NCBI RefSeq assembly: GCF_000002865.3
Contig: NW_001865051.1
Coordinates: forward strand, 606,728-670,727
Reading direction: 5' to 3'
Length of the DNA: 64,000 nucleotides
Origin: Monosiga brevicollis MX1
Taxonomy: Eukaryota; Opisthokonta; Choanoflagellata; Craspedida; Salpingoecidae
Shown: positions 18,554 through 62,456 of the stretch, piece after piece
Layout: every line of letters begins with the position of its first letter
How positions within the stretch are numbered: the first letter of the stretch is position 1
Position numbers and translations under genes: made by a program
The notes under the pieces: model-generated
Told to the model about the DNA's origin: nothing
Databases searched by the model: none
Seen by the model: the letters and a program-made list of their open reading frames with translations, nothing else

Positions 18554-21500
18554 TTAGACCAAACTCACACGCCCACCAAGAACCTCAACGCTCTCCAAGA
18601 TTGTGTCTTCCGCATCCAAATCAATCTCAATCCAGTCCGGACCCTCAAGGGGACAGCTCACGGAAGGCAATGGCTCTGTCTCAAACACAGAGGACACGAC
18701 AGACGAGGCTGAGCCTTCACTTTGCCTCGCCTCGCGCGCCTCGGCCGTGCCTTCAGCCGCCAAGGAGGACATTGAAAAGTCAAGGACGAGCTTGCTTGCT
18801 GTGAAAGGCCGCTCGTTTGTAGTGGAAGACATATTGTAAGCAGCACTACTGGGAGCCAACCAGCTGTTGATTGACGCGGATGCAGACTCCATAGTGGCAC
18901 CCAAGGGTGACGGCGCTGTGCGTGGTGCGGCGCCGTCAAAGAAGTGGCGTGGAAGCGATAGCGAGGTTGACAATGGCTCCAAATTGGCCACTTGGCGTCG
19001 TGTAGCCAAGGAGGCGTCGGCCGGGTCAGGTGAACTCAGACCATGACCCGTACCGGGCTCGGGAGCCGAGCGCGTGGAGACAAGCGAGAGGTCATCGTGA
19101 CGCTCATCTTCGCTACTGTCCATACAGTCAGAAGCGGAAAGCATGCTGCTGCGCCGACTGTAGCTTGTAACAGCAGAACTGCGAGGCAAGGACCAGGTCT
19201 CGCTGAGGCGATGGGGCGTCGCCTCCAGGCTTGCATCGCTTAATTTAGGCCGAAGCGGTGTGCGAGCTTGCTCTGGCAACGCAGACAAAGACGTGCTGCT
19301 CATCTTGCTGAAGCGACGCGGTGGGGGCATAAAGGCATGAACTGAATTGGTGCGAGCGGAGAGCGGGCCGTCGGTCGAGCCACCGTCTGCCTCTGCATCA
19401 GCTGCCGCGGCCACCACGATGGTCAAGCTGCTGCGCTTTGGCTTGCGCTCAGTCGTGGCCCCCTTGTTAGCGCCACCCTTGGCAGGTGAGGTCAGCTCAG
19501 CCAACAGATATTGGCGTCGCACCTGAGCCGCCTGGGTGTCCGGTGCAAGCTCCGCTTTGCTGGGTAAAGCAGGTAGAGCCGCCCGAGGCACAGATACGCG
19601 GAGGTAGGACTGCATGCCAAAGTCCGTCCGCATGGGAAAGGCCTGTTGAGACTGCACGCTCATCAGAATTTTGGTGACAAGATCCGCAGAGTCGCGCGAG
19701 AGAGTGCGGCGCGTTTCCGTGGCAAACAGCAGATCTTTGAGATGAACGGGGAGGAAAGGGATACAGGGCTTGTTGTGGAACTGCTCCAGCTGGCGGCGAT
19801 AGTTGGCCATGTTGCGCGAAGGGTCCGTGAGTCGCGCCAGACGCGCAAACAGCTTGCGGTGCTTGTCCGCCAAGCGCACGGTCGCCATCTTACGGGACAC
19901 CTGATTGCCAACGGAAGCAAGACATGCGCCGGAGATGAGAAGGAATGCGCTCGCGGCCGGATTCGTGATGACGCGAAACCTTGGCTGCTCAATTCAAGAA
20001 AACACTCTCGCTCAAGAACAGGCCGCTGACCTCGACGCTATCAAGAGCTGAGTAAATGGAAAACACGCTAAAGAGATTGCCAAGCTGACAGCACTTGTCT
20101 GCTACGCGCAACATTAACCTAATAAACGAAACAAAAATCAAGGTGAATCCACTCGCATGACTCAGCTGCCAAATGAAAGAGGTCATTGCATCTTGGTCAG
20201 CTGATTCGATCGGGGTGGGGACAAGCATCGGCTACGTACAAATATTTGGAAAGCCACTCTTTCTCGGCCGTGCCTAGGAGAATCTCGGCCTTGACCCAAG
20301 CAATCTCTTGCTGAAAGCGATCCATGGCAGCTTGAAGCGCAGAAGAGTGCGCCGAGTGTCCAGGTGCATGCTGTTGTGACTCCATTTTGTAAGCCCGCGC
20401 CACTGTGTAGCAAGACACAAATCATGTGAGCAAGAGACGGCACGTGACAGCCGTGCGCCATGTGACAATTTTTTGCCGAGGTACAAGAGTAACGAGAAGG
20501 AGGGAAGGTGAGGTCAATCAAGTCGAGAGGAACAAACGCACTCGCTGTCAGGTAGTCATCGACAGTCAGTACTGTGAACAGCTGCTCATCGAAGAGCGTG
20601 AGCTGGTTTGCCACAGTATCTGGCTCCAGCTGATCCAAAATGCCAGGGGTAGGGCCATAGTGTTTGTCTATGAAAGGCAATGGGTCGTAAGAAAAGATGA
20701 GAACGAATCCTCGACCGTGAGAAACTTGGAAATGTGACGACCGTACCTGCAGTTGCCGTGGCATCCACGGGCTTGCGCGCCGCGGTGGCTCTGTCCTGCA
20801 GCTGAACGACGAGTCGGATTTCTTGCAGGAGCCAGGCCCATTCAGAGCCCATGTGTTGCTCGCACCAAGCCTCAAAGCTGTGGCGGGTGAGATCATCGTG
20901 CAGCAAATCCGAATGGCACACAGAGACCCAGAGGAGGCTCAGCTCCAAAACAGCATACGTCTGCACAAGGAGAGCAAATGAGCTGGAGGCCCCGTGTGTC
21001 AAGCAGCACGACAGGATGGAACAAGGGGCGCACCGCGCTAGGAAACCGCTCCAAGCAATCCTGAAGGTAATTCAAAAACTCAAGGGGGGTGAAGACGACG
21101 CGATACGTCAGGACCAAGCCCAGCATGGCGGGTATGTCAGCCTGAATTGACCGAAGTGGTCGCTTGAGCCGCCGCAAACATAGACGCTCTATTGTATCAA
21201 GACACGGGTTGTGAGGGGCGGTAAGCGTGTTGCCTCGACCAAAGAAAACAGCAAGGCCCACTTGCACCGAAAGCGATTAAAGGGGCAAGGTCACGCACCA
21301 CGAGCTTCATCGTCCTTGGCCGGGTGGTGGGTGCTCCGCTGAAGCTATATATCAACGCGCGGAGATCAGGAGGTGAGCAAGGAAGAAGTATCTTTGAGTC
21401 CGGGGCAAAAAAAGAAGTGCTTTTAATCTATACCTGGGCTTCACGGAGAGCAGCTGCAAAGAGCTCGAGGGCATCGTCATCCAGCTTGTGATGACAAGGC

Positions 21501-30500: not shown

Positions 30501-32473
30501 CACAGCATCCGACATGAAGGCCGGGGACAAACTGCACCTGAATGGTTTGCGTATTTGTGAGTTGATCAAAACGGCGCGTTCCATGTGGACCCGTCAGAGC
30601 GGACAGCACAGCCAAGACGCCGGCGCCTTCGGACTTGTTCTCCGCAGCTCGGTTGACGAGGTGAGAAAGAGCTATCTCGCACGGAAATTGGGGAGGATGA
30701 TAATCGTGAGCCAGTAGGTCGAGGACGAAGGGGCGGCGCGCATTTGAGCAAAGGATGCAAGCCTACCAGCACGAGCGGCACCGTGCACGCCAGCAGTCGG
30801 GTTGTGCAGGTTGTTGATGATTGAAGTNNNNNNNNNNNNNNNNNNNNNNNNNNNNNNNNNNNNNNNNNNNNNNNNNNNNNNNNNNNNNNNNNNNNNNNNN
30901 NNNNNNNNNNNNNNNNNNNNNNNNNNNNNNNNNNNNNNNNNNNNNNNNNNNNNNNNNNNNNNNNNTGGGGGGGGGGGGGGGGGGGTTTGAGCATTCGCCA
31001 CACTTTTCGCTACAAGGGAGCTCGATAATGTGAGTGTCTGTCGAAGGCATCCAACCTGCTGGAGCGTGGCGCGGTCAACGAGGGCAGAAAAGAGGGCAAA
31101 GCCGGTTGCTTTGCGCTGGGGGCTGGAAGTATCAGGTTCAAAAGCGCCTGTCTCGATCAGCGCCTTCCAGGCCTCACGGAGGTGGGCGTTGTCCTGGACA
31201 GCCAACAGAGCAGCCAAGTATTGAATCATGGGGTGCTCTGGGGCCGTGGCGAGCAGAACATCAGTAAGTTGCTGCCAATCTGCAAATAGCTTGCCATCGG
31301 CCCAAAGGGCAGCAAGGTGTTCAGGAAGCTTGAGAGCGGCATTCTTCTTCTTGGCGCGTAAGAGGGGGGCCAAGGCCAAGAGTTGGGCCACAACAAGCGG
31401 GGAAGCGTGATCTTTCTCCTGGGGTTGTGCAAAGGCATCCAGCTGCGGCAATAGAAGGGACTCCAGGGTTGACTTCTTGACCTGAGTGGGGCGGGCCATT
31501 ATTTCCCGACAATGAAACGAGGGGTCGAATCAGACATTTGACGAACGGGAGGGGCATGGGTGTTGCGTTGGTGATCGAGGGCGCACCGAAGGCAAGAGGC
31601 GGCAGCAGGCATGGACAGCGCCAGCTTCAAGATAGCTCTTTGATGTGGCGAGCTCCAAGAGTTGCTGATAGATGGCGCTGTGCAACTCGGGGTCGACGGC
31701 ATCACCAAAGCGACCTTCAGCCACAACATCCGCCTGGCCAGTCGGAAAGACCCGGGAGTGGCGAGGCCGGGTAGCCAAGAAAGGGAGTGGGGGAGTTACG
31801 TGGGGGAGTTGCGTGAGGCACGGGAGCTTTGGGTTGGATACTATGGTCAAGCCAGCGGAAGGGCGCAAAACGAGGCACGAAGCTTGCCATGTTGTTGATC
31901 TTACCAGGATGGTGAGGCCGAAGAGGCGGCCAAAGAAATGATCGCGCTGCTCGTTGCCCTTCATACCACCGGAAATGGTCGAAGTCTGCTGCAGGAGGGA
32001 GAGAATATCCTGGGGGCGGACAATGTCGGCAAACTGTTGGAGCAGGATGTGAAGGGCTGCCGCAAAGCCTTGGCGAGCACCCTTTCGGGAGGAGGCCAGG
32101 CCGCGAATGAGACGCTTGAGGCTGTAACGCAGGTCCTCGCTGATGGCGGGGCCAGCAAAGATGGATTCAGTCTCATCATCTGCAGTTTGGGCGTCGGGAC
32201 CGTCGGAAGCGGCCGCGAGACCCTTTTGGCTGTGACGAGGTCGACGGAGCGCGAGCAGGGTGAGCAATGGCAGTCTTGAACGAGTCATGCGATAGCACTG
32301 CTCAAGCGCGAACGAGGTTCCAACCTGTCCACGAGGATGGCCAAGAGGCGGGCGGCAGCATTGAGACGGGTGCTGACGGCCAGGTCAGCCAAGTCCCAGA
32401 AGCAGCTCATGAGCTCACGCGACCCCGAGGCCATGGCCTCTTGATTCTCGGTCGCAGGCATGATCATGGCCAT
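25794..32473 (-). CDS. Pol5/MYBBP1A family nucleolar protein
   Basis: This family (DNA polymerase V in yeast by name only; MYBBP1A in animals) acts in rDNA transcription and ribosome biogenesis in the nucleolus. Exon 1 starts at 32473 (MAMIMPATENQEAMASGSRE, then CFWDLADLAVSTRLNAAARL) and joins to an exon with LRYSLKRLIRGLASSRKGAR and a HEAT-like continuation ending near 31890. This FWDLA...RLNAA...YSLKRLIRGL pattern is diagnostic. A long segment starts near 31499 and continues to the gap at 30828-30965, which interrupts the gene. Later exons around 28980-28500 hold an acidic tract (Asp/Glu repeats, 28545-28700) followed by EVDEALKARLR, placed as in MYBBP1A. Helical exons continue at about 27830-27600, 27480-27390, 27290-27165, 27090-26990 and 26740-26590. 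A Lys/Arg-rich exon ending VRT at 25794 (from about 26070) is a plausible nuclear-targeting C-terminus, but an exon between 26590 and 26070 is probably missing from my reading, so the 3' end is tentative. Confidence 0.82.
27510..27574 (-). repeat. 65-base homopolymer (A on +, T on sense strand) inside a Pol5 intron
   Basis: Sixty-five uninterrupted A residues on the + strand lie in an intron of the minus-strand Pol5 gene. On the sense strand this is poly-T, and it ends only about 30 bases before the exon that starts near 27480. True length is uncertain because homopolymers assemble poorly. Confidence 0.9.
28545..28730 (-). repeat. Acidic-tract coding repeat in Pol5/MYBBP1A
   Basis: Imperfect trinucleotide repeats (TCATCG, TCC, CTT on +) encode runs of Asp and Glu on the minus strand, split by a KRAKRVEGQ segment. 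Acidic tracts at this position are usual in this family. The repeat is a likely site of length variation. Confidence 0.8.
30828..30965. other. Assembly gap within the Pol5 gene
   Basis: 138 N bases. The right flank is a run of 19 G residues (30967-30985), a typical cause of a read break. On the minus strand the flank reads poly-C, which gives a spurious Pro run in translation. At least part of one Pol5 exon or intron is missing here. Confidence 0.99.
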
Positions 32474-35811: not shown

Positions 35812-36766
35812 TTACTCGTGCTCTTGATCTTCAAAATCCAAGTATCCCGCTTCATCTGAACGATCGCCAACGTCCAGATAGCCGCCAGCAGCATCCCCTT
35901 GCTCTGTTTCCAAGTAGCCATCCTCAAAGGAGGGCTCTTCAAAGGTGCCAGCTTGGTTATGCGGCAGGTCCATGTAGTCAGGGTTGTCATCGTAGCGATC
36001 AAACGGGTCTTCGTCATACAGCGGATTCTCCTTGGTCTCATGTTCTACGCTGGTCTCGTACAGGGGGTTCTCGAAAGCAACCGTGCCCTCGCGTCCCCCA
36101 CCTGCCTTGTATGCAACTACGCCCGGGTGTTTGGCAGCGTTGCGACGGGCACGGACCACCAAAAAGGCAGCAACTGCAGCTACGACCACAATCGCAGCAA
36201 CAGCCACCCCGACAATAATGGCAGTGTTGTCACCAGAAGAGCCACCCGCACCAGTACTTTCGCCGGTGCCGACCCCAGTTGTCGGCGATCGAGTCGTAGC
36301 CCCACCACTGCCGGCCACGGCCTGGCGGTATTCTGCAATGGCAGCTTCGTAGTCGGCTGCTGACGCGTCGGCACCAAACGCCTTGCAGGCAGCGCATGGG
36401 GTTACCAAGTCTTCGTTTTGGCGGATGTCAGTTACAGACGCTCCAGCAATAATGGTCAGAACTTGGCTCAGTGCACCAGTGTTGCGCACATCGAGCAGTG
36501 CGGCATACACAGCTTGTGCCGCCAATGTTGAAGGTGTGACACTAAAGTTGACCAAGATCGAGCCTTGTTGCATGGCTAGCACTCTGATCGCGGCGGGCGT
36601 GACCGGGTTGGTGGTGGCATTCAAGCGCACATTGAGCGCCTGTGAAACGGCTGAATGCATGTCCCGAGGCCGCAGATCTGAGGGGTTGATTCCGCCAAAT
36701 GAAAAATGCACATGCGTAGTGGCCTGCATATGCAAATTGGCTTCGGTGGGATAGGGCGTTGTAGTT

Positions 36767-36858
<92 letters not shown>

Positions 36859-39800
36859 GGTGGTTGTTGTTGTTGTAGTGGTTGTCGTTGTGGTAGTGGT
36901 GGTTGTAGGCATTGTCGTGGTCGACGAGGAGGCAGTTGACGCTGATGCTGTCGTCGTTGTCGTTGTGGTCGTCGTTGTGGTCGTCGTCGTCGTTGTGGTG
37001 ACTGAGTTGCGATACGCGTCGTAGGCGGCATCGAACTGTGTTTGCGTGGAAGCGGCGGTGCACTGTTGGCAGGGGGTGAAACTGTCGCTTGTGATGGCAC
37101 CGTCCTGGACCATAGGCGAGTCCAGTCTCTGAGCCAAAGCATCGGCCAGCGCGCCACTCTGACGCACATCCTGAATTGCAGCGTAGACTGCTTGAGCTGC
37201 GAGAGCCGAGCTCTGTGGTGTGACCACAAAGCGTACCCGTACCGACGTCGGGTTGGCACTGAAGAGATCCGTGACGACCACATCCGAGCTTTGGAGCGGG
37301 TCAACTCGCGCATCAATGACCTGGTTGACGATTGCCGTCAGGGTATCTGGAAAGTCACTGGTGCGCCAGTCGTTGGCCGTGGTGCCTGTAAAAGCAACAG
37401 CCCCAAAAGACGATAGATCGGTGGTCGTGGCCTGCTGCGTCTTGGAGACAGTGGTGGTGGTGGTAGTGGTGGTGGTGGTAGTAGTCACTTTGGTGGTAGT
37501 AGTCGTTGTGGTCGAACCCATGGTTGTGGAAGCTGGTGGTACAAGCTCCACATCGGCGCAGCATCGGACTCGTGCGCTAAAAAAAGTTGGCAGACACTCT
37601 GACGTACCATGGGGGCCACCGACATGCGAGTGCACGAGGAAAGCTTCCACTCCGCAGCGGTCGCACCGGGTGGACGACCACACGGCGGCAAAGTTGTGCT
37701 CACAACCGGTGTCCATGGCTTCGCCACGCACGAGCTCAGAGTACGAGCACAGGCGCGCACCGGCCGCGCGACAGTGGTCATGGGCAGAATTAAAAAACAC
37801 GTCACCATTGACGCACTCGCCGTCGTCGACTTCTGAAGCCCCGCACACTGAAAAAGTGCCAAAGCCGTTTTCTGACCACCCCAGGGCGGCACACGTTTGT
37901 AGTGACACTTCCTTGGTGAGGGCAGGGTCCGCTTCGTCGGCGCAGCAACGGACAGCATATGAGGCGTTGTTGGATTCAGCACACCTATGGACGCGAAGGC
38001 ATCCCAAAGTGCATGCCAAGCCAAGTCGGCCGCACACAAGACACGCATGAGTTGCTTTCCAATTGTGCGATTCAGGGTCAAGGATCACGGGCGGAATTCA
38101 TACATGGAATTTTGACGGCTGGGGTTGTAGACAACGTAGCCTTCACTGCCTCGCTCTGTCAAACACCGGCCTGCAAGTGTGATGTAGCTGTCAGCCAGAG
38201 GGTCGTCGGGGACGGCAAAGGCATCAATCATCCATCTTGGACAGAGACGTGCACCAATGGTCGCGCACAGGCGGTCGGCTTGGTCAGGTGACGTTGCAGT
38301 CAGCACGCGCTGGGTGGGGGCCCGCTCCTCAGCGTTTAGCGTCCAGTGAACATAAGGGGACAAACAAACGCTACCGGCCGCGGTCACGTTGTTTGCAGCA
38401 TTGCTCCAGCCTTGTGTAAAGCCAGTCAGGTCGGGGTTGCGTCTGGTTGCGGCAGCAGTGCGCAGCTGCGCGCACGTGGCATCAGAGCGCACTGTCACGT
38501 CATCGGCGCAGCAACGCACATGGGACTGCGCGCTGGTGGCGGCACAACGGGGGGAGACGGCGGATGAGTGGCCCTGCTTGGGCACTTGATAAAAGCCACC
38601 AGCACACGGGGTGCGTGTCCATGTATAAAAGTCACTGTTAGGAGCACATGGTGCCGCCTCTAGCTCTGTATCTGATTCCCTGTCATAACCACAACGGGGT
38701 CCACGCCATATCCAGAGCAGGGTGGTATCATGTGAGATCAAATACGTGCTGCGAGAGACAAGAAGAGGATCACATTTGCAAACTTACGCAAGAGTGCACA
38801 AGCGAGCCCCAGCATCTGAGCAGACTTGTTCCGCCTGGCGAAACGTCAAAGCAACGGCCGCACAGTTGCCGTCGTCTGCAGTCGCTCCACCCACAACATT
38901 GGCCGTGGCGCAAACATTGGGGGCACCAGGGCCAGGGGCCAGACCAAGCTCGTCGCAAGTCTTGCAAGACGTGCTCGTGAGGGCTGCCTCGTATTGTCGC
39001 ACATCAGCACAGCAACTAAAGGATTACAAACAACGCAGCGGGAATGAGTGCGTCTGGTCATCGCTTCAGGCTCTGGTGCAAATAGATAGGGAAGAGCAAG
39101 CTCGCACCGAACACGGCCCTTCATGGTCACGATATCACGGCATTGCGCATCAACATGGCCTTGCTCAAACAGAGGGCCATATTTGATTCCCACGCGACTT
39201 TCCGAGCCACACGTGCTGCAATCGGACGACGACCACACGTATCCAGAATCGAACCCACCCCCTGACCGCGGCGCACCGCAACGATTGCGAGAAGATTGCA
39301 CAAAGAATAAGCATTGTTACCAAGTCAAAGTGTTGCACGATATGCAGTGTCGTACCTGTGCCAGCACCAATGCCGGCTGCCAACTCGCTGGCCGTGCACA
39401 GCCGCGCGCCAAGGGCATCGCAAGTGGCATAGGCCTCGTCATATGAGATCGGATCGGGCAGGAAGGTGCTGTTGGGACCCACAAGGCCACTGGCACACAC
39501 ACCAACGTTGCCAGCCCGGCCCGGACTCCAGTCCAACTCGGAACATGAAGAGCGAGAAGGCCATGGCTCCACTGCAGTCTCATCTGTGTTTGAGGGGCGT
39601 GTGAGGTGGGGGCGCCTTGGGGTAAAAACCTCCCTGGCCAGGATTCGCTGCCATCGAATTGTCTTGGTCTGTTCTCTTTTCCTTTCAGCCTTGTTCCCCA
39701 TCAAACAGCTAAAAACATAGTAAAGCAAAACGAAGCTTACCAGCACAGCAGCGCAGAGCAGCGCCTTCCTCAAAAGCCTTGCAGTTCCATGTGTCTGAAT

Positions 39801-42800
39801 TATGCGTGAGAGCCCAGTATCCTTGCGAACCATCCGCCGTTTGGCAGTAGGAGCCCGAGATGACGGGGACCGAATTGAAGTTGCAGCCCGTGTCCATGGC
39901 TTGGGTAGCCAGCTCATGCCGCGTGCATAGCCGACCACCGTTCACCAGACACGTGGCTGTGGCTTGAGCAAACGTCACGTTGGTATTGCACCGCGCATCG
40001 CCTTGCGGCAGAGGAGTGCCAGACATGTCATACGGCAACTGTGATGCAGCACAAACCAGGTCTTGCTCGTCGTCGGCCAAGGTCCAGCCACCTTTGAAGG
40101 AATTCAGGAAGTTAAACTGGCCCTGGCCCTCATTGCGCAAGACCTCACATGATTTGTCTGAAGGAAAGGCGACGCGCTCATCAGCACAGCAACGCACAAA
40201 GGCCATGTCCGTGGCCGCGCGACAAGTGATATTGTTCCCATGGTCCGTGTTGCCTAACACAGACCAAAAACTGCCCGAGTCACAGGCTGTCCGCGTCCAA
40301 ATTTCGCGCCAGTCGTGCTCACATCCGGTCGAGACCGTTTCTTTTCTCAGGACCTCCTGGTAATCACACAATCGTGCTCCCACACTCAGGCAGATGCGTT
40401 GTGCCGCCTGGGTTTGATGAATTTAGCAGAATTGGGGTGCGTGTGTGCGCGCGCATGGAGGGGTCACAGGCAAAACTGGTGTGAGCAAAACCCATCGCGC
40501 TTCTCGATACTTGACCTGGCTTGTTCATCGCCTTGGGATGCAACCGCCTTTTGCATGAGCAGATAAAAGAGCAAGAAGCGAGCAAGCTGGCCCACACGAA
40601 CCTGAAAATCGACGGCACGGTACAGGCACTGACTGGTGGACCCACTGACAAGAATCTTCGAGTCGGCACAAACAGCCGACGATGCCCAACCTGAAGGCCA
40701 ACCGAGCTGCGAACATGTTTTGCACGATGTCGTGGTAAAGACGTCTTGGGCTCGAATGGCATCGGCGCAGCAGCGGACGGCAGCCGTTTGGGTCGAAATA
40801 CTGCGGCAGTCCTCCTGCTTGTTATCATAGCGGAAAGTGCGGTAGCTTTCCTTGCCGCATCGACCGCACTCGCTGGAAGTCCACACTTGCCTGGCGTTGT
40901 GCAGGCAGCCGGTATCCGCGGACACGCCACCGACGTATTCAGAAAAGGTACAAAGGCGTGCACCAATGGACTCACAATAATCCTTGGCGGCACCAAAGGA
41001 CACCTCCTTCCCCACGCACGTGCCGTCTGCCTTGACTTGGGACAGACCGCAAACCTCTGTGGTCATGAAGGACTCGGTGAAGGTAAAGCCGAGGTTGCTG
41101 CAGCTCAGTTCTGACACGGGACGCTCTGGAACAACGTCGTCGGCACAGCAGCGCACGCCCTGATCCGCGCGATGTACATCGGGGACGCGGCACATCGTTT
41201 TTGTCTCATCTGTATTTCGGTTGAACAGCCAAAATCCTGCTTCGCCTTCACTTGTGGTGCAGGGCTCGCTGGTCCAGACATACACGGCATCAAAGAAGCA
41301 GCCAGTACCGATAGCGACCTGCTTTGTCTCCTGCAAAGTACAGAGCCGCGCATGATTGATTGTGCAAATGTATTCAGCCTCGCCTTGCGTCACGTTCGAG
41401 TGGCAGCGCTTTGCGGGATCACTCTCCAGCTCTCCGCTAACGTTGTAAGCCAGCTCCGATGCTGCACACACGGGCGCGTCGGCAGGTGATTGGCGCCAGC
41501 CGTTGACGTCTCGAGTATTCACTAGGTTTTGGATGGCGGACATGTGTTCGGCACAGGACCAGTCTGACTTGACTACGGAATCGCTGTCTGCACAGCACAC
41601 GTAGGATGCGCGACCTGCAGTGACGTTTCGGCACTCTCGGGCCGAGCTATCAGCCGCACCGGGCACGGTGACATAAGCAGCGGCAAAGCCACACGACGTG
41701 CGCGACCACACCGGGCTGTCAAGCGCACACTCCGCATTTGTCAAAGCAGAGTTGTTGAAGCGCCCTCCCTCGATCTCCCCGATGCCGCATAAACGCGCGC
41801 CCATGGCGCGGCAAGCTGCAGCAGCCTGCTCAAAAAATGCATTGGCCACAGGGCACGTTCGATTTACTCCGACGTCAAATGCGCCGCACACGGGGCTCCA
41901 GGCTGCTGTGTCATCAAATTGCGCACTTAGATCCTCACAAGAGCTACAGGAGGTATCGGTGTTGTCCAGTTCAATAACGTCTTCCTCGTCGGCACAGCAA
42001 CGGATGCCGCCTTGATCGCTATCGCTCAGGCAATGGCGCGCACCGTAGGTTGTACCGACATCGTTCCAGCGATGTGCCAAGTGGCGATTGTAGCCACAAC
42101 TGCTGCAAGCAGTCGAGCTCCAGGTCCATGCGTTGTCGTGCCCGCAGCCGGAGCCCCTGCTCACGCCGGACGCCAATTCCCCAAACGTACACAAACGGGC
42201 ACCAATGGCCTTGCACATGGCATCAGCGGTAGTGTAATTGGCAGCCGAGACAGCCGGACATTGATACGTGCCGCTGCCCGCCGGCGATTCCTCGATTTCG
42301 GAATCCCCACACACCCCGGGGCGCACAACTGATCCGACGGACGATTTGAAGCCAATGTCCTGGCAAGAGCGCTGAGAACGCTCGATGTGCGGCACCTCCT
42401 CATCCGCGCAACAGCGTACGGCAAAGGTGCGATTATTCACGGTGGGGTCCGCACTCGCACAGTATGGTGGGTTGGTGTCAAGTGTGTTGATGTCTGGTAC
42501 CACCAGGTAGCCGGGGCGTGAGTGGTTGTTTGATACAAAGCACGTCGACGACGATGCTTTGTCAATGTAATCAAAGCCACAGCCCGTGTCCCAGCCAAAC
42601 AGGGCATGTTCGTTCACCGTGCACACGCGAGCACCAATCATAGCGCAGAGGCTTTGGGCCTCGTCGAGGGTCGCATGCTGGCAGCGGTCGTCAACGTTGG
42701 CAATGAGATTGCCATTGACGTCATAAGGGATGTGCGAGGCAGCGCAAATGCCCAAGTTGGTGCGAGCCGGCGAGGACCATCCGTTGATGTTATCCTTCTG

Positions 42801-45800
42801 GTTTCGCTGGCCAAGGTTGGCGGCAACACGAATGTGCTGACTGCACGAGAGATCCGACGGCAGCTTGCCCTCGTCGCCGCAGCAGCGGACCTTGGCTGCG
42901 AGCTGCGTCTTGGGGGCACAGGTCCAACTTGGGGTGTCCACGCCAGCATAGGCTGATTCCGTGACAATAAATTCACCGTCGCTGCAGCCACCAGCACTCC
43001 GCGTCCAAACATTGACCGAGTCCTCGTCGTCGCACGTTGCGCCGTGGAGCTCATTGTTCCACACTTCTTCAACCGAGCATAGCCGAGCGCCAATGCTAGC
43101 ACAAACCTGCAGAGCAGTGTCAAATGCCACATTCTCGTTACTACAAGCGCGGGGGCTGCCGTCCAAAGAGCCCAGGATCATACTGGAGGCACAGACATCA
43201 ATTGAGCCCTTGGCCTCTGTTCCCAAAAAGTCCATAAAGCCCAATTCTCCGCACGTCCGACATGATGCAGCCGTCAAGGCTGTGGTCGAGCTGAGATCGT
43301 CGGCACAGCAGCGAAATTTGCGACGCCAAAAGCGATTGATGCATTCCGTTTCACCCGTCGCAGGATTGTACATGGTAGAAAAGTCGCCCGTGCCGCGACC
43401 GCAGCTTTGCGTAGACCAGAGGAACTGGTTATTGCAGGTGGTGCCCTGGGTAACACCGAGAACGTGCTCCTCCATGGTGCACATGCGCCCCCCGATGCGT
43501 CGGCAATAGGCTTCTGCATCGTAATAATTGCGTGCGCCCAGGCACTGGGAGTCGCGGCTTTGGCCTGTACTGCACACATGGCGCAGCGTATCCGTAGCCT
43601 GCCAGCCCAATTGATGGCAGCTCAGCGCAGAGGGCTCGACTGGCTCAGTCTCTTCATCCGCGCAGCATCGCAAGCCGAGCGGCTGCTCTGCCTCAATGGG
43701 CCCTGTGCTGGGCACGCAAAAGTTGGCACCGTTGTAAGGGCGCACGGCGCGGTGGCCAGGTTGGCCGTCGCTCGTAGTACAGTACGTTGCCGACAGAATG
43801 AAGCTCTCTGCGTCGTAGCCACACCCGGAACTCCTTCTACACATGGAGGAAGCAAGGCGGGGAGGCAAAATCAATGTATAAGTTCTCATACACGTGATGA
43901 AGGAACACAAAAGGGTTGAGCAGCAACGCCACAAGCGGCCAAATACGCATGCGGAGCAAGGCATACGTACGTGCTGGTCAAAACCTCACTGCGAGTGCAG
44001 AGGCGAGCACCAGTCATGGCGCAGGCGCGGATGGCATCTGGAACCGAGGTGGGCCGCTGACAGCGAGCATCCACTGTTGCAGGAAGAAAAGCACCACTTC
44101 CGTTAAAGGGGACGAGGGAGGCAGCGCACACGCCTTGTTTGGGAGAGGTCCAGGAAACGCCATTGGTCCAACGCACGCCAAGGTAAGCGTAGTGGGCCAC
44201 CTGCTCGGTACAGGAACGATCTGACTTGATGTCAAGCTCGTCAGCACAGCAGCGCACGAAGGCTGCTTCTGTTGGGGCTGTGCACTTCAGGGGAATGTTG
44301 TCGAGTTGGTCACCTGCCCCTGGCCCCGTCCAGAATCCAGTGGGGCAGGTAGAGCGGGACCACAGACGGTTGAAATCGTGACCACACCCAGTTGATCTAG
44401 TTACGTCCCCAATGAGCTCGGAAATCTCACAGAGGCGCGCTCCAATGACCGCACAATACTCCTCGGCTACGGCAAAGGGCACAGCGTCCGCAGCACAGGC
44501 AGGGGTGCCAGCTTGGTCGAGAATGTTGCTCTCACCGCAGACCTTGGAGGAGTTACCGATGATGCTGCCCTGAGGCGTGAAGGGAATGGGGTTCCAGCTG
44601 AGCTCGCCACACGTCTTGGCCGAGGTGCCAACTAAGACGGCCGATGAGCTTGAGGCGTCGGCGCAGCACCGAACCATCGCGCGTTCCAAGGGCGACACGT
44701 TGCGGCAGCGCGAACCCCCTCGATCGTTGTTGGCGTGCACCTTGTATTGCATGTAGCCCGTGTTGCCGCACCGACCGCATTCAGTGCTGGTCCACATGAA
44801 GGTCTGGTCCACCGAGCACCCCGTGCCATTGACCTCGGACGCCAACGCCTCTGAATTCGTGCACAAGCGCGCACCGATGGCCGAACACATGCGCTGAGCC
44901 TCATCAAAGGTCACGGCGTTGTTGATGTCGTCGCCATCAGTGAAGCAGGTGCCATCGACTGATACCGACGAAGCACAGGTGGATAGGCGCCCGACACCCG
45001 TGCCAGACCAGCCGAGCTCTTGGCAAGAACGCTCGGAGCGAGGGGCGGATTCACCGAGATTGATCTCATCGCCGCAGCAGCGCACGGCATAATTTGCATC
45101 ATTTTGGGCCACACAGATGGGCGGTCCCGAGTTGTCGCCGTTCGTAGCGAAGTAGCCATAACCGTTGTCCATGCGACACGCTGAGCCAGTAACGATCATC
45201 TGAGAATCAAAGCCACACCCGGTGCCTCTGGCAAAGCTGATTTCATTGAGTCCGCAGAGACGGCTGCCACTGGCGGCGCAGATGCGGACGGCATCAATGT
45301 ATGACTTGCCGGAGAAGCAGCGAGTGTCTGTCTCCAGGCTTGTATTGCGAACAGCGGCGCCATTTTCGTCAAAGAGCATTTCTGAGTTGGTGCATTTGCC
45401 ACCCTCAACGTCTTGGTCGGGTGATTTCCATTGTTGTAGAACAGGGAAGGTGTTGTAGCGAGCCGTGTTGGAGCGCAAAGCGGCACAGGGCAAATCTGAC
45501 TTGATGGTGCCATAGTCTGCACAGCACTGCCATCGTCAAAAACGAGCGTATGAGGGACGGTGAACAGGGGGGTGTTGAGGACGAGCAAGAGCGTTTTGTA
45601 GGAAAGCGAGGTGCCTGTATCAGTGGGTGCTGTTGAGCATGGGGGATGGGAGTGTGAAGGGAGAGAAATACTTACGCGGACATAGGCAGTGGTATTGGAG
45701 TCACGGGGCAAGCAGACCTCCGTGTCGCTGGTGGCTTGTGCGCCGCGACCAAGGACGGCAGAGAAGCTTGCTTCATTCACAGCACAGGAGGTTCGCGACC

Positions 45801-48164
45801 AGATGAATCTATTGTCGTGCTGGCAGCCGGTGCCGGCCGTCTCGCCACTGCGCAGCTCAGACGCATCGCAGAGGCGAGCTCCGACATCCAGGCATAGACG
45901 CTCGGCAGCATCCCACGGCAAGGGACGGTCAATGCAGCCGGCATTGTCGGTCGCAACGCCACCAGCCACCTCTGAATCCGAGCATACTTCGTTGGAGGCT
46001 GTACCCGAGCCCCAGCCGAGCTCAGAGCAAGTAGCGCACGACGTACCGTGCAGTTGACCAAAGCGTGAGGTGTCATCTGCACAGCAGCGCACAAAAGCGG
46101 AGCCCGAGTTGGCGGCAAGACACTCGCTGTCAGTGGTATCCTCGAAGCGGTAGGCCATATACTTGGTTTCGGAGCAGCGGCCACACGGCGTGCTGGTCCA
46201 GACATATTGAGTGTCATGGCCGCAGCCTGTGCCACGCGATTCACCCCCGACATATTCGCTAAAGGTACAAAGTCGGGCGCCGATGGCTTCGCAGGCTTGC
46301 TGAGCGGCATTCCAGTTCACCTCAGAGCTGACGCAGCCAGATGAGACTTTAGAGGTGTTTAGCTGACTGGCCCCACAGACATCGAGGCGACCGTAGGGTG
46401 TTTCAACAAAGTTGGGCAGTTCACTGCATGATTTGACTGAGGTTTTGGGTGCTTCCAAGTATTCGTCACCACAACACATGGTGGCGTAGCTATTCTCTCG
46501 CGCCACGTCGTCAGTGACGCAGGACTGCGTATCAGTGTCGTTCCATCGGACGATGATGTAGCCTACTCATACGGGCGAGCGTTGGGATGTCTGAGAAGCG
46601 CGAACGAGCTAGCCGTTGGCGAGACAAGCCTCGGCAGCATACCATCGTCTTGGCCGTTGCCGTTGGTGTCACAGCGTGAATTGGTGATTAGATCCAGCCC
46701 GTTGAATTCATTGGCACAGCCGGTGGCATCCATCTTGTTTCGTAGTTCGTGCCAGAAGCACATGCGTGCGCCGTTGGCAGCACACACCTGGAGTTGTACG
46801 GCGCGGGGAAGGAGAGTGGAAGGGAGGCGAGGACGTGTTAGAGGGGGAACAGCAAGGCAATGAGGATTGCTCGAATGACGATGTCTTGGAATATTAGATA
46901 CACATACGCGCTCAGTGTCAACGACCGACTGGTCGCGCAAGCAGCGTTGGTGTACGCCTTCCACAACGGTAGATGGAAGCAGAAAGCCATCCTTGTCGTA
47001 TGCCATGTATGCACCAACGCATACGGTGTCAAACTGTGAATCGGGATCTTGTCTAGTCCAACCATTGTCCGTCTGCCAATACCAAGCGGGCATGAGACGG
47101 AGGAGGGGAGAGGAGAGGAGATGAGAGGAAAGAGCCATTCTCTGGCATGCGTACCGCGGCCCGCGCTGGATTCCCGTAGTTCTGGGCAAGAGCACGCAAT
47201 TGGGTGCAAGAGAGGTCGCTGCGCGTGGTGACCGAGGAAGCGTCGGCACAGCATCTAATGTTCATTCAGCAGCAGATTATAGCGATCTTGGTGTGAGTTG
47301 AGCAAGAGGAGCGAAGAAAGATCAAGCATGCAGCGGGAGCAGACCTAAAATAGTGGGACTCATTGGGATCGGTCACGTTCTTGGGAATTGAGTCGAGCAT
47401 GGCTGGTTTACCAGCAGCCGTGATGTAGCCGACTGAGCCATCTGGCAGGAGGCCAGGTGTCCGAGTCCAGAGCTATGGGAGGGGTGTGTGTGTGTGTGTG
47501 TGTAGACCGTGGGATGTTTATGTCGGTACACGAGGATTTATACAGGCTGGAACGCATGCGTAGGGGAGGTGCAGCATTGGAACGATGGCAAGTTGAAGGG
47601 ATCGTACTCTTTTGTTGTCAAAAAAGCAGCCTGTACCGGCAGGTTCGCCCGCTTCAAGCTCGGAAAAGGCGCAAAGGCGTGCGCCTTGAGCTAGACAGGC
47701 CTGTCGAGCTTCCGCGTAGGTCACTGGAGGGTAGCATTCCCCGTCGGTGGTTGTAATCGAGTTGCCACACACGGATGGGTATTTCTGTGTGCATCAGCAT
47801 GGTGAGCCCGAGCCTGAGAATGAGGCGGTAGGGCTTGTTTCCCTCCCCTCCTGTTCTCCCGGAGCAGCACGAGTACCGTCGTCCTTACGGCTTCATGGCT
47901 CCAGCCCAAGGATTCACAAGTTTGACAGGATGTCGTTGTTTCCTCAATGAGAGCGGTTGCGCTCCTTTATGAACGCAGTGCAAGCATGGCCGCCAGTGAG
48001 CATTGACAGGCACGGGCGGTCTGAGCTTAATCTCTGATGCTGGATCAACGGATTGAGTCGGGAGGGGTTTGCCCAGACCAACAGACGAGGGGACGTGGTC
48101 TGGACGGCGGAGCTGACCCGAGGAAAAGAAAGAGCACGCCGGCACAATGAAGGCCGCGTGCCAT
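35812..48164 (-). CDS. Giant membrane protein: about 21 tandem Cys-rich ARLC modules, Thr-rich linker, two SEA-like modules, one TM, tyrosine-motif tail
   Basis: The gene starts at 48164 with MARGLHCAGVLFLFLG, a signal peptide, and ends at 35812; I estimate about 3,500 residues in roughly sixteen exons. The ectodomain is a chain of about 21 modules of 120-150 residues. Each runs RCCADE, then SC-x-x-LGW, a VCA-x-S box, a Cys-containing helix ending IGARLCT-x-x-E, then GTGCGHD, W-T-S-x-x-C and a last Cys before the next RCCAD. The block 43964-40600 alone carries about eight modules in one exon. The GARLCT-x-x-E helix recalls C-type-lectin and formylglycine-enzyme-like folds, which is only a structural guess. 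After the modules come a Thr-rich tract, two related SEA-like units, a membrane span (IIVGVAVAAIVVVAAVAAFL, near 36160-36225) and a tail of about 115 residues with NPLY twice, NPDY and three YL(E/D) motifs. It is most likely a cell-surface adhesion or recognition receptor. The 5' joins between 48100 and 46500 are less certain than the rest, and a split into two genes cannot be fully excluded. Confidence 0.85.
35815..36156 (-). other. Cytoplasmic tail with phosphotyrosine-type motifs
   Basis: The tail contains FENPLYET (Tyr codon near 36058), KENPLYDED (near 36017), DNPDYMDL (near 35974), DGYLETE (near 35914), GGYLDVG (near 35878) and AGYLDFED (near 35842). NPxY is the known core for PTB-domain and adaptor binding. 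Acidic residues around Tyr with a hydrophobic +1 or +3 position are typical of tyrosine-kinase substrates and SH2 ligands. Whether they are phosphorylated is not visible in sequence. Confidence 0.8.
36430..37420 (-). other. Duplicated SEA-like module flanking a Thr-rich linker
   Basis: Two related segments encode VRVRFVVTPQSSALAAQAVY with AAIQDVRQSGAL (near 37220-37145) and ILVNFSVTPSTLAAQAVYA with ALLDVRNTGAL (near 36560-36475). Each is about 110 residues, ends in a C-x-x-C (CQQC, CAAC) and lies near the membrane. The arrangement and the alternating strand/helix pattern suggest SEA-type domains, which autocleave in mucins and adhesion receptors. I did not see a clear G-S-x-x-x cleavage motif, so the SEA label is tentative. 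Confidence 0.5.
36756..37005 (-). repeat. Thr-coding trinucleotide tract (GTA/GTT/GTG on +)
   Basis: On the minus strand this encodes an almost pure threonine run broken by one Ser/Ala-rich patch (ASASTASSS). The core at about 36764-36848 is perfect (GTA)n on the + strand, that is (ACT)n in sense. A second shorter Thr run lies at about 37444-37520. These look like mucin-type O-glycosylated stalks and are probably polymorphic in length. Confidence 0.9.
37540..47950 (-). repeat. Array of about 21 diverged protein-level repeats (ARLC modules)
   Basis: Counting the IGARLC box or its variants gives about 21 copies, from a first module near 47950-47345 to the last near 38005-37540. Copies differ strongly in sequence (GARLCT, GSRLCG, GGRMCT, GARVCT, HARLCT, GARMCF), so the array is old and not a recent DNA-level tandem expansion. 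Two subtypes alternate irregularly: one with SCxxLGW and GTGCGHD plus CGRCG, and one with a longer first loop containing WxSP..GVCAAS and GTGCxFD. Confidence 0.8.
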
Positions 48165-49698
<1,534 letters not shown>

Positions 49699-59509: not shown

Positions 59510-62456
59510 ATGGCTGCTCCCGGCCCGGCTCGGCATGTTGCCGTCGTCAAGTCTGTGCTGTCGGGTGATACCATCATCCTCCGCGGTTCGTGCATGTCTA
59601 GCCTTGCCAATTTCTTCTCGATCACAAACACCTGGCTACCCTTATCTCATCGTTCTCTCTGCCGGCCGCCTTGCGCTTCCCTTCCTCTTGGCACGACATT
59701 GTTGATGCATCCAGGCCAACCACGCAACGGACCTCCCCCAGAGCGCACGCTCGCCCTCGCCCAGGTTTGTAACTTGATGCAAATTTGTGTCTCGTGCATC
59801 TTCCCTGCTTGATGTCCTGACCCCTTGGTATGTTCCACAGCTCAGCGCACCGCGCCTTGGCCGTCGCCCCAACAAGAGCGGTGAGGTCCAGCTGGATGAG
59901 CCCTTTGCCTGGGAGGCACGCGAGTTTCTGCGCAAGAAACTGGTTGGCAAGCAGGTCACCTTCACCGTTGATTACACCGTGCCCTCTGGTCGTGAGTACG
60001 GCACAATCCTGCTCGAACCCGGAACAGTGCGCGAGGAGAACGTGAGCCACTCTCTTCTTGGTGCCGGTCTCGCCAAGCTCCGTGACAACGCCCGCGGTGA
60101 GGGCGAGGACTGGGAAACCATGCTCACCCGCCAACGCGAGGCTCAAGAGGCCAAGCGTGGCGTTTGGGCAGACGATGCTGCCAGCCACGTTCGCAATGTT
60201 GAGTGGAACATTGAGAACCCCCGCGCCCTCGTCGACTCGCTCAAGCAAAAGCCCGTCAAGGCTGTGATCGAGCAAGTCCGCGACGGCTGCACCGTCCGCG
60301 TCATGACGCTGCCCGACTTCAAGTATCTTACCATCATGCTCACTGGCATCAAGACCCCCGGCTTTAAGCGTAACGCTGAGGGTGGTGAAGTTCCCGAGCC
60401 TTTTGCGCTTGAGGCCAAGTTTTACGTGGAGTCGCGCCTTCTCCAGCGCGAGGTTGAGGTCATCTTGGAGGGCGTGTCCAACAACAACTTCCTGGGTACC
60501 GTTCTCCACCCGCAGGGTGGCAACATTAGCTTGCACCTGCTCAAGGACGGCTTTGCCTCGGTCGTTGACTGGTCCATCGGCAACGTTACCCAGCAGCGTG
60601 ACACCTACCGCGCCAACCAGAAGTTTGCCCAGCAGCGCCACTTGCGCCTGTGGAAGACCTGGACTCCTCCTGCCGTCTCAGCCATTCCCGAGGCAGAGCG
60701 CGAGTTCAAGGCTACCGTGGAGGAGATTATCAACGCAGAGAGCCTTGTGATCCGTACTCAAAAGGGCTCGCAGCGCATTCACCTGGCCTCAGTCCGCAGC
60801 CCCCGCCCCCCCGCCAAGGGCGAGGGTGAGTCGCGCGGACGTGCCCCCCGCCTGTGGGAGATTCCCCACGCATACGAGGGTCGCGAATTCCTGCGCAAGA
60901 AGCTTATTGGCAAGAAGGTAGATGTGCATCTCGACTACATCCAGCCCGCCAACAACGGCTACCCAGAGAAACACTGCTGCTCCGTCGTCGTGGACAAGGT
61001 CAATGTCGGCGAGGCGCTGGTGAGCAAGGGCTATGCCACTGTCCTGCGCTACAAGGCGGATGACGATCAACGCGCGAGCGGTTACGATAACCTCATGGCT
61101 GCCGAAACGCGTGCCATCAAGAACAAGCGTGGCGTTCATTCCACCGGTGAAGCGACGCCTCTTCGCATCACTGAGGTGTCCAACAAGCAGTTGGCCGATC
61201 GCTTCCTGCCAGGTCTGCAACGTGCTGGCCGCGCTACCGGCGTGGTTGAGCACGTGGTCGCCGGCTCGCGCCTGCGCGTGATGGTCCCCAAGGACAATTG
61301 CATTGCATCGGTCGTCCTTGCTGGTGTGTCGTGCCCCCGTACGGGCCGCGATGGTGCCCCCGATGAACCCTTCGCAAAGGAGGCCACGGAATTCACTCGC
61401 AAGTTCTGCTTGCAACATGACATTGAGTTTGAGGTTGAGGACACGGACAAGGGTGGCAACATGGCCAGCCACGTTTATTGCAAGAACCTCAATCTCAGCC
61501 AGGCCCTCCTCGAGCGCGGGTTGGCCAAGCTGCACCCCTCTGTGGACCGCTTCAAACATGCGGCACAGTACAAGGCCGCAGAAACAGCTGCTCGTGACGC
61601 CCGCAAGGGTGTCTGGGCCAACTACGATCCTGCAGCTGAGGCTGCTGCTGAGGCGGCGCGCAACTCGGCACCTGCACCCGAGGTGCAAGAGCGCAAGACC
61701 AACTACAAGCCCGTTGTGGTCACGGAGATTGTGGACTCCATCTCGATGTACGTGCAGAACGAGGATACCGCTAGTTTGGGTGACGTCATGTCCAAGCTCA
61801 AGGCCTTGGACATGGAGCCCCCGCAAAACTTCCCCATCAAGAAGAATCAAATGATTGCCGCCCAGTTCTCCCAAGACATGGCTTGGTACCGCGCGCGTGT
61901 TCTGCAGGTGAACGGAGACGATGTCGAGGTAGGTTTTCTTCTTCTCTCTGTGCTTGGGCGAGATCGGAGATCCGTGCATGGACTGCTGCGTGCCGTGCTT
62001 CCTCGCTCACCATCTTTGCCTGTCCCTCAGGTGCAATACGTTGATTTTGGTAACAGCGAGTCCGTCAGCAAGAAGGATTGCGCGCCTTTGCCGGCTGGCT
62101 GCAATGCCCTGGCTCCCCAGGCTCAGTTGGTGAAGCTGGCCTTCCTCAAGCCCGTGCCCGAAGACTGGCGCAACGAGTGCTGCCAGGTGCTCCGTGATCT
62201 TGTGCTGAACAAGAAGGTTCTCTGCAACACTGAATACACCGAGGAGGGTGTGCCTTGCGTCACTCTGAAGGATGGTCAGAGCGATGCCGATTTGACCACC
62301 GAGCTTGTGACGGCTGGCTACGGCATTGTCGCGCCCCGTCGCGAGCCCGCCTTCCGTTCCATCATTCAAACGCTGATGACGCAGATGAACGCTGCCAAGA
62401 GCTCGCGTGCTGCCATCTGGGTTTACGGTGACATCACAGAAGATGAGCCTTTTTAA
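59510..62456 (+). CDS. SND1: Tudor-SN / staphylococcal nuclease domain-containing protein 1
   Basis: Tudor-SN is an RNA-binding protein with tandem SNase-like domains and a Tudor-SN fusion at the C-terminus, active in RNA processing, decay and stress granules. Four exons join in frame: 59510-59585, 59715-59764, 59841-61928 and 62031-62456, giving 879 residues, against about 900 in other species. The N-terminus AAPGPARHVAVVKSVLSGDT opens SNase domain 1. Four SNase-like units carry the recurring pattern EPFAxEAxEFxRKxxxxxxV and xGLAKLxxN (near 59895, 60400, 60870 and 61365). The Tudor signature VQYVDFGNSESV follows at 62031, and the protein ends YGDITEDEPF. Codon use is strongly biased to C/G-ending codons, more than in its neighbours, consistent with high expression. 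One 2.1-kb exon holds almost all SNase domains, unusually intron-poor here. Confidence 0.97.

Follow-up and report, generated by a model that had tools for sequence, protein, structure and literature searches.

The window analysed here is a 64,000-nucleotide stretch of the Monosiga brevicollis MX1 genome (contig NW_001865051.1, forward-strand positions 606,728 to 670,727), and its central feature is a single gene for a very large, modular, receptor-like protein. The gene lies on the minus strand, with the start at 48164 and the stop at 35812 in window coordinates, and comprises 16 exons with a coding sequence of 10,542 nt for 3,513 residues and no internal stops. The exons occupy 48164-48118, 47964-47889, 47784-47608, 47472-47345, 47254-47155, 47072-46908, 46787-46643, 46562-45676, 45526-43971, 43836-40602, 40407-39741, 39583-39356, 39261-39108, 39015-38788, 38679-38104, and 37984-35812. 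All 15 introns are GT-AG, in phase, and 80-194 nt long, and the first donor, GTCAGC, is weak. From the amino terminus, the protein consists of a signal peptide, 21 so-called ARLC modules, two Thr-rich stretches each followed by a small domain, a membrane span, and a cytoplasmic tail. This anatomy is close to certain. It bears out a preliminary description of the same DNA, which had placed a protein of about 3,500 residues at 35812-48164, with some 21 modules in series, a signal peptide, a single membrane span, and a tail.

The signal peptide (residues 1-20, 47952..48164) was called by eye as a hydrophobic N-terminus, and it crosses intron 1. The exon junctions were picked by hand among the open frames of genomic DNA, and several genes or a pseudogene might thus have been read as one. 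Such an artefact is hardly credible, however, given 15 in-phase GT-AG introns, the absence of stops, a paralogue with the same module order, and a related complete open reading frame (P0121, described below).

The ARLC modules adjoin one another from residue 21 onward, are 119-165 residues long, and contain 8-11 cysteines each. An alignment of the 13 single-exon modules has 14 invariant columns, including the Cys, Ala, Arg, and Glu of an A..C...GARLC...E core. The mean pairwise identity among all 21 modules is 30%, in line with the strong divergence claimed at the outset, whereas the claim of two module subtypes has to be revised to three. The module heads rotate strictly through class A (TSCxTCxELGW type), class B (SDxSC type, long loop), and class C (SxxSCxxLGW type). 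Because leave-one-out profiles of the three classes assign 21/21 modules as the rotation predicts (module M13 being nearer A than C by only 0.2 bits), the array is read as (ABC)7. Its seven triplets, all on the minus strand, lie at 46081..47951 (M1-M3), 44663..46080 (M4-M6), 43305..44662 (M7-M9), 41994..43304 (M10-M12), 40767..41993 (M13-M15), 39009..40766 (M16-M18), and 37558..39008 (M19-M21), the fourth and fifth entirely inside exon 10.

A search of 39.5 Mb of the genome, in which counts of module loci are lower bounds, finds one other locus with ARLC modules at E ≤ 0.001 (L009 and L010, contig C51:729494-745860). By guided spliced alignment, this C51 paralogue has 21 modules, 47 introns in the array (14 in the window array), and no stops. 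It also carries a Thr-rich stem, one juxtamembrane domain, a membrane span, and a tail of the form FTNPMY...GYMDV...AYMDV. Beyond this genome, the 20 modules of P0121 (EukProt, 2,832 residues, labelled complete) score as BC(ABC)6 and precede a membrane span, and those of P0001, an incomplete protein out of SRA assemblies, score as BCABCABCABCA.

Not only the order of the modules but also their individual positions are kept. The best window match lies at the same position for 18/21 modules of C51, against about 3 expected (binomial 5e-13), and for 12/20 modules of P0121, again with about 3 expected (binomial 3e-6). The C51 model was guided by the window protein, so that its module count of 21 and part of the 18/21 are not independent; read by eye without the guide, the C51 open reading frames show 21 module heads in ABC order. 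P0121 is unguided, and its modules match those of C51 at the same position in 11/20 cases (about 3 expected, binomial 2e-5). When P0121 is slid along the window array, the mean identity is 0.400 at shift 0 versus 0.343-0.371 at six other in-phase shifts. Since position is conserved in both C51 and P0121, the modules have not been freely exchanged after duplication, and a freely recombining combinatorial array was rejected on account of the conserved order and position. The long-standing selection proposed in the preliminary description is upheld by this positional identity and by tail motifs that recur in relatives. Each of the 21 modules seems to have its own role. The (ABC)7 order has stayed fixed at individual positions through a gene duplication and also in P0121, which comes from a different source, and this shows that evolution can freeze a long repeat array instead of shuffling it at will.

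The introns of the window gene crowd both ends, with nearly none in mid-gene (39741-46562, where exons measure 887, 1556, 3235, and 667 nt). Set against the intron-rich C51 paralogue, this sparseness looks like intron loss in the window copy.

The module itself is widespread. Among 195 protein matches, the 120 listed were scanned, and 120/120 contain at least one ARLC module; a few of those listed belong to records that bear the label Myxococcota or a similar one. Origin from a phage or a prokaryote was rejected as the main explanation, a tblastn search of the phage collection having given no match. Four of the relatives (P0122, P0038, P0008, and P0124) combine 3-9 ARLC modules with a membrane span, some also with HYR and TNFR-type domains, and the (ABC)7 array is found in none of the four. 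The nine modules of P0122 score as AACCCAACC on the window subtype profiles, so the ABC reading is only partly borne out there. In a module tree whose forks are mostly weak (68/130 inner branches open; B alone as a clade, support 9), the second-of-triplet modules of P0122 and P0038 join B in 3/4 cases, the first ones scatter, and the four third-of-triplet modules group in a separate clade (98). Across the related proteins, the module is partnered with trypsin, subtilisin, GH16, PAN, HYR, and TNFR-type domains. In P0006, P0037, P0056, P0060, P0034, and P0045, from marine metagenomes, ARLC modules are joined to domains with the Pfam labels trypsin, subtilisin, or GH16, and the module may serve to target secreted enzymes.

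An existing domain family that covers all modules, an outcome the preliminary description had considered, was not found: no Pfam family reaches its cut-off in the modules in the 12/16 exons that were scanned piecewise (exons 3, 4, 6-12, and 14-16). Below threshold, the strongest matches are to FGE-sulfatase (E 0.0019) and Link (Xlink, E 0.0047-0.13), and both recur in several exons on one stretch around A...C...GARL. Lectin_C (PF00059) has no match in the scanned exons and matches 0/13 window modules, and none of its 16 matches in the genome search lies inside the receptor gene; with no module reaching the cut-off, Lectin_C membership was rejected. Of eight related proteins, whose selection rested partly on these labels, 8/8 reach the threshold of at least one of three families (Lectin_C, Link, and FGE), yet no single stretch passes alone.

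Profile comparisons point in the same direction. With hhalign, a 133-module profile aligns to C-type-lectin-like domains (CTLDs) of the same genome with Prob 55-60 over 24-25 columns, while 100 column-shuffled controls give at most 0.6. One of the 12 CTLD rows, L024, was a misread frame, and the comparison was repeated with the other rows only. A 31-row profile (A3; 18/28 listed modules served as profile input) matches eight distinct PDB chains at E 0.012-1.1, led by MRC1 (E 0.012) and PLA2R (E 0.016). Seven of the eight belong to the mannose receptor, PLA2R, LY75, aggrecan, or the IgY receptor, which contain CTLDs or Link modules. The best PDB match of a window-only profile is 8oks_B, a peptidase S74 domain-containing protein (E 0.038), over 70 positions, longer than the CTLD matches. 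The module probably belongs to the C-type-lectin-like superfamily, as a derived branch. Weak but consistent profile matches thus favour, without proving, the fold guessed earlier (C-type-lectin or FGE-like). Several other matches carry no weight: Mus81 (E 0.9), the only match of a single-sequence PDB search, and the weak Pfam matches to MoCoBD_2, Opacity, NICE-1, Neurensin, and DUF4551 were taken as chance, and an NCBIfam scan gave chance-level matches only. The genome search with Xlink returned nothing at E ≤ 0.001, as did its controls, and is uninformative.

Between the array and the membrane lie a first Thr-rich stretch (37417..37545), juxtamembrane domain 1 (37117..37416), a second Thr-rich stretch (36745..36999) that derives from a long trinucleotide run, and juxtamembrane domain 2 (36445..36744). 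Neither of these two domains figures in the preliminary description, nor do the tail's tyrosine motifs. The Thr-rich stretches are presumably O-glycosylated. The Thr-coding run occupies 36761-36860, and its length likely differs between strains. Domain 2 is 35% identical to domain 1, for which there is no Pfam match. The cleavage motif of SEA domains is GSxxV. Domain 2 contains GSILV, the C51 domain GSAVV, the related proteins P0002 and P0003 GSVIV, and P0122 GSVVA; domain 1 lacks a GS motif and has TSVRV at this point. The likeness of domain 2 to SEA lies in the motif only. SEA (PF01390) is absent from the Pfam matches of six juxtamembrane sequences and from the PDB search, and membership of that family was rejected on these grounds.

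These features bear on one alternative, a structural coat or shed mucin-like protein in which the Thr-rich stems and SEA-like domains would anchor a coat cleaved at GS and the tail would serve turnover. The long Thr tracts would suit such a protein, as would GS(I/V/A)(L/I/V)V in juxtamembrane domain 2, C51, P0002, and P0003. The missing SEA matches argue against it, as does a conserved multi-Tyr tail that exceeds the needs of turnover, and this explanation is distinctly unlikely.

The membrane span (residues 3378-3400, 36154..36222) is the only hydrophobic span after the array by hydropathy. It is followed by a tail of 113 residues with 8 Tyr (35815..36153). Exon 16, which encodes the tail, has no kinase match in the Pfam scan, and the protein does not qualify as a receptor tyrosine kinase. 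The tail harbors AFENPLYE, within which FENPLY (36058..36075) is an FxNPxY sequence of the PTB-binding or endocytic type, a second NPLY (36016..36027), and the acidic Tyr sites NPDYMDL, GYLET, GYLDV, and GYLDF (35836..35985). In 5,000 shuffles of the tail, its three NPxY and its four Y(L/M)(D/E) sites (mean 0.135) are never equalled, and FxNPxY is reached in 0.1%.

The combination of FxNPxY with Y(M/L)(D/E) is common to five relatives: C51, P0008, P0124, P0038, and P0122. The C51 tail, joined from five segments across GT-AG introns that are all in phase, has SSFTNPMYGG first, followed by EEPGYMDVSG and ESAYMDVG. Among 126 proteins, the other four are those with FxNPxY within the last 250 residues, and each has a GY(M/L)(D/E) site. 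P0008 and P0124 share 66% identity; FENP(M/L)YGEG and EESGYMDVA are preserved in both as islands in a tail whose intervening sequence is not. In P0003, FENPM is followed by a different sequence, perhaps that of an intron, and P0002 ends short.

In keeping with M. brevicollis as the source, an exon of the UNC18 gene in this genome is identical to PDB chain 2xhe_A, a protein of that species, at 47/49 aligned residues. Kinases and adaptors suited to such a tail are encoded in the genome, which has 114 SH2 and 13 PTB matches. Four of the 13 PTB matches (L018, L019, L020, and L021) have a tyrosine-kinase match no more than 1 kb away, and each of these four kinases carries HMD, not HRD, in its catalytic loop. 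The HMD loop marks the HMTK family of M. brevicollis, and this PTB-tyrosine kinase type is reported to be absent from higher metazoans (PMC3082566). L019 encodes EGQDYWQSK, and HMTK1 is printed in the same source as EGDQYWQSK. The HMTK1 PTB domain bound FTNPVpYATLG, a ligand that cut the substrate Km about 15-fold, and acidic peptides were also phosphorylated by HMTK1 (PMC3082566). Natural HMTK1 substrates were sought there as well; the two partial-match proteins named, one of them a cadherin-SH2 protein, are not described in terms resembling this receptor. The giant receptor has an FxNPxY tail of the uptake type, and the same genome encodes PTB-tyrosine kinases for which a preference for this kind of ligand is known.

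The closest parallel is the mannose receptor family (MRC1, MRC2, PLA2R1, and LY75/DEC-205), whose members, like the window protein, are type I proteins with one span and an FxNxxY tail, and have tandem C-type-lectin-like modules, a fold that is probable for the modules here. Family members have 8-10 modules, in contrast to the 21 found here, which are not recognised as Lectin_C; the Thr-rich stems and the extra Tyr sites are further differences. The mannose receptor is internalised through FENTLY (PMC8551360), and the corresponding motif of the window protein is FENPLY. The cysteine-rich (ricin-type) and fibronectin II domains have no Pfam match in the scanned exons, and the modules begin at residue 21. 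A second parallel is with LRP1 and megalin, which have a very long Cys-rich array, a single span, and an NPxY tail for PTB adaptors and endocytosis. The window protein shares these three traits, but LDL-A, EGF, and beta-propeller domains are absent from the exons scanned, and membership of the LRP family was rejected. Rosetteless of Salpingoeca rosetta has two canonical CTLDs with EPN (PMC4381721), unlike the 21 non-canonical modules here, none with EPN, which are joined to a signalling tail. In a survey of the open-licence literature, none of the papers listed describes the protein or its module. The preliminary claim that no receptor of such architecture had been described holds to that extent, while the module itself is widespread.

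What we infer for the fold, ligand, phosphorylation, docking, and uptake is an endocytic or phagocytic signalling receptor that would work like the mannose receptor family without being a member; as a whole chain, this proposal has about even chances of being right. The protein would be a giant type I membrane receptor in which the 21 disulfide-rich modules form a long arm of seven three-module units, raised off the membrane by the Thr-rich stretches and the two small domains. The arm would capture particles or macromolecules, most likely bacteria or bacterial debris. Multivalent binding of cargo would cluster the receptor, and a kinase would phosphorylate the tail. NPxpY could then recruit an HMTK-type PTB-kinase or a PTB adaptor, and the docked PTB-kinase would phosphorylate the acidic YLDV-type sites, to which SH2 proteins would be recruited. 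FxNPxY would drive uptake of the receptor with its cargo.

Two further alternatives bear on what the arm and tail do. In the first, an adhesion or self-recognition receptor, the arm would attach to neighbour cells, the substrate, or a partner in mating, with the tail signalling contact and not uptake. The single span, the long rigid arm, the pTyr-type tail, and the individually conserved modules are compatible with this function, and the CTLD protein Rosetteless organises colonies in another choanoflagellate (PMC4381721). However, FxNPxY is of the type used by uptake receptors and no homophilic domain was found in the receptor, so adhesion is considered unlikely. In the second, a soluble ligand would be sensed and signalled through tyrosine kinases without uptake. 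The acidic Tyr sites and the abundant SH2 and kinase domains would serve such a sensor well, but an arm of 21 modules would be an unusual means of binding a small ligand and FxNPxY suggests trafficking, which makes this reading very unlikely.

Several observations weigh against the uptake-receptor proposal. P0121, the nearest protein over the full length, has a complete tail without any of the tyrosine motifs and also lacks the Thr-rich and juxtamembrane domains, despite the same array; because it has the array and not FxNPxY, the array can work without this tail. Among the 120 of 195 matches listed, NPxY beyond the span occurs in only 3/21 with a predicted span after the array, and short tyrosine motifs can arise convergently. 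The position matches of P0001 number 4/12 at the best offset and are not significant. As regards the fold, the evidence is limited to about 25-30 residues, and a forced global hhalign comparison to CTLDs gives Prob 0.9 with the remaining module columns unaligned. The sugar-binding motifs EPN, QPD, EPD, and QPN occur 0 times in the array (WND twice), while EPN or QPN is present in 4/11 CTLDs of the same genome. With the canonical triplets absent from the array, a mannose-type Ca site is unlikely.

The fullest version of the uptake-receptor proposal is put forward tentatively, as a doubtful possibility: a pre-animal, pTyr-based phagocytic receptor with a non-canonical C-type-lectin-like (ABC)7 array, 21 position-specific roles, and an FxNPxY motif wired to PTB-tyrosine kinases. 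If true, uptake signalling of the mannose-receptor and LRP kind would have an independent counterpart that predates animals, and the HMTK kinases would gain a receptor. More generally, the protein is a candidate for bacterial recognition at the choanoflagellate surface and for the receptors that feed a very large tyrosine-kinase network, and its module is common in marine eukaryote proteins yet outside Pfam coverage.

Upstream of the receptor gene, on its coding strand, a long CT-rich tract extends over 48640-48940. Neighbouring genes in the window encode an SNase-Tudor protein of the Tudor-SN type (59778-62453, plus strand), a RasGEF (18557-19993, minus strand), and a protein of the DNA polymerase phi type (30675-32384, minus strand).

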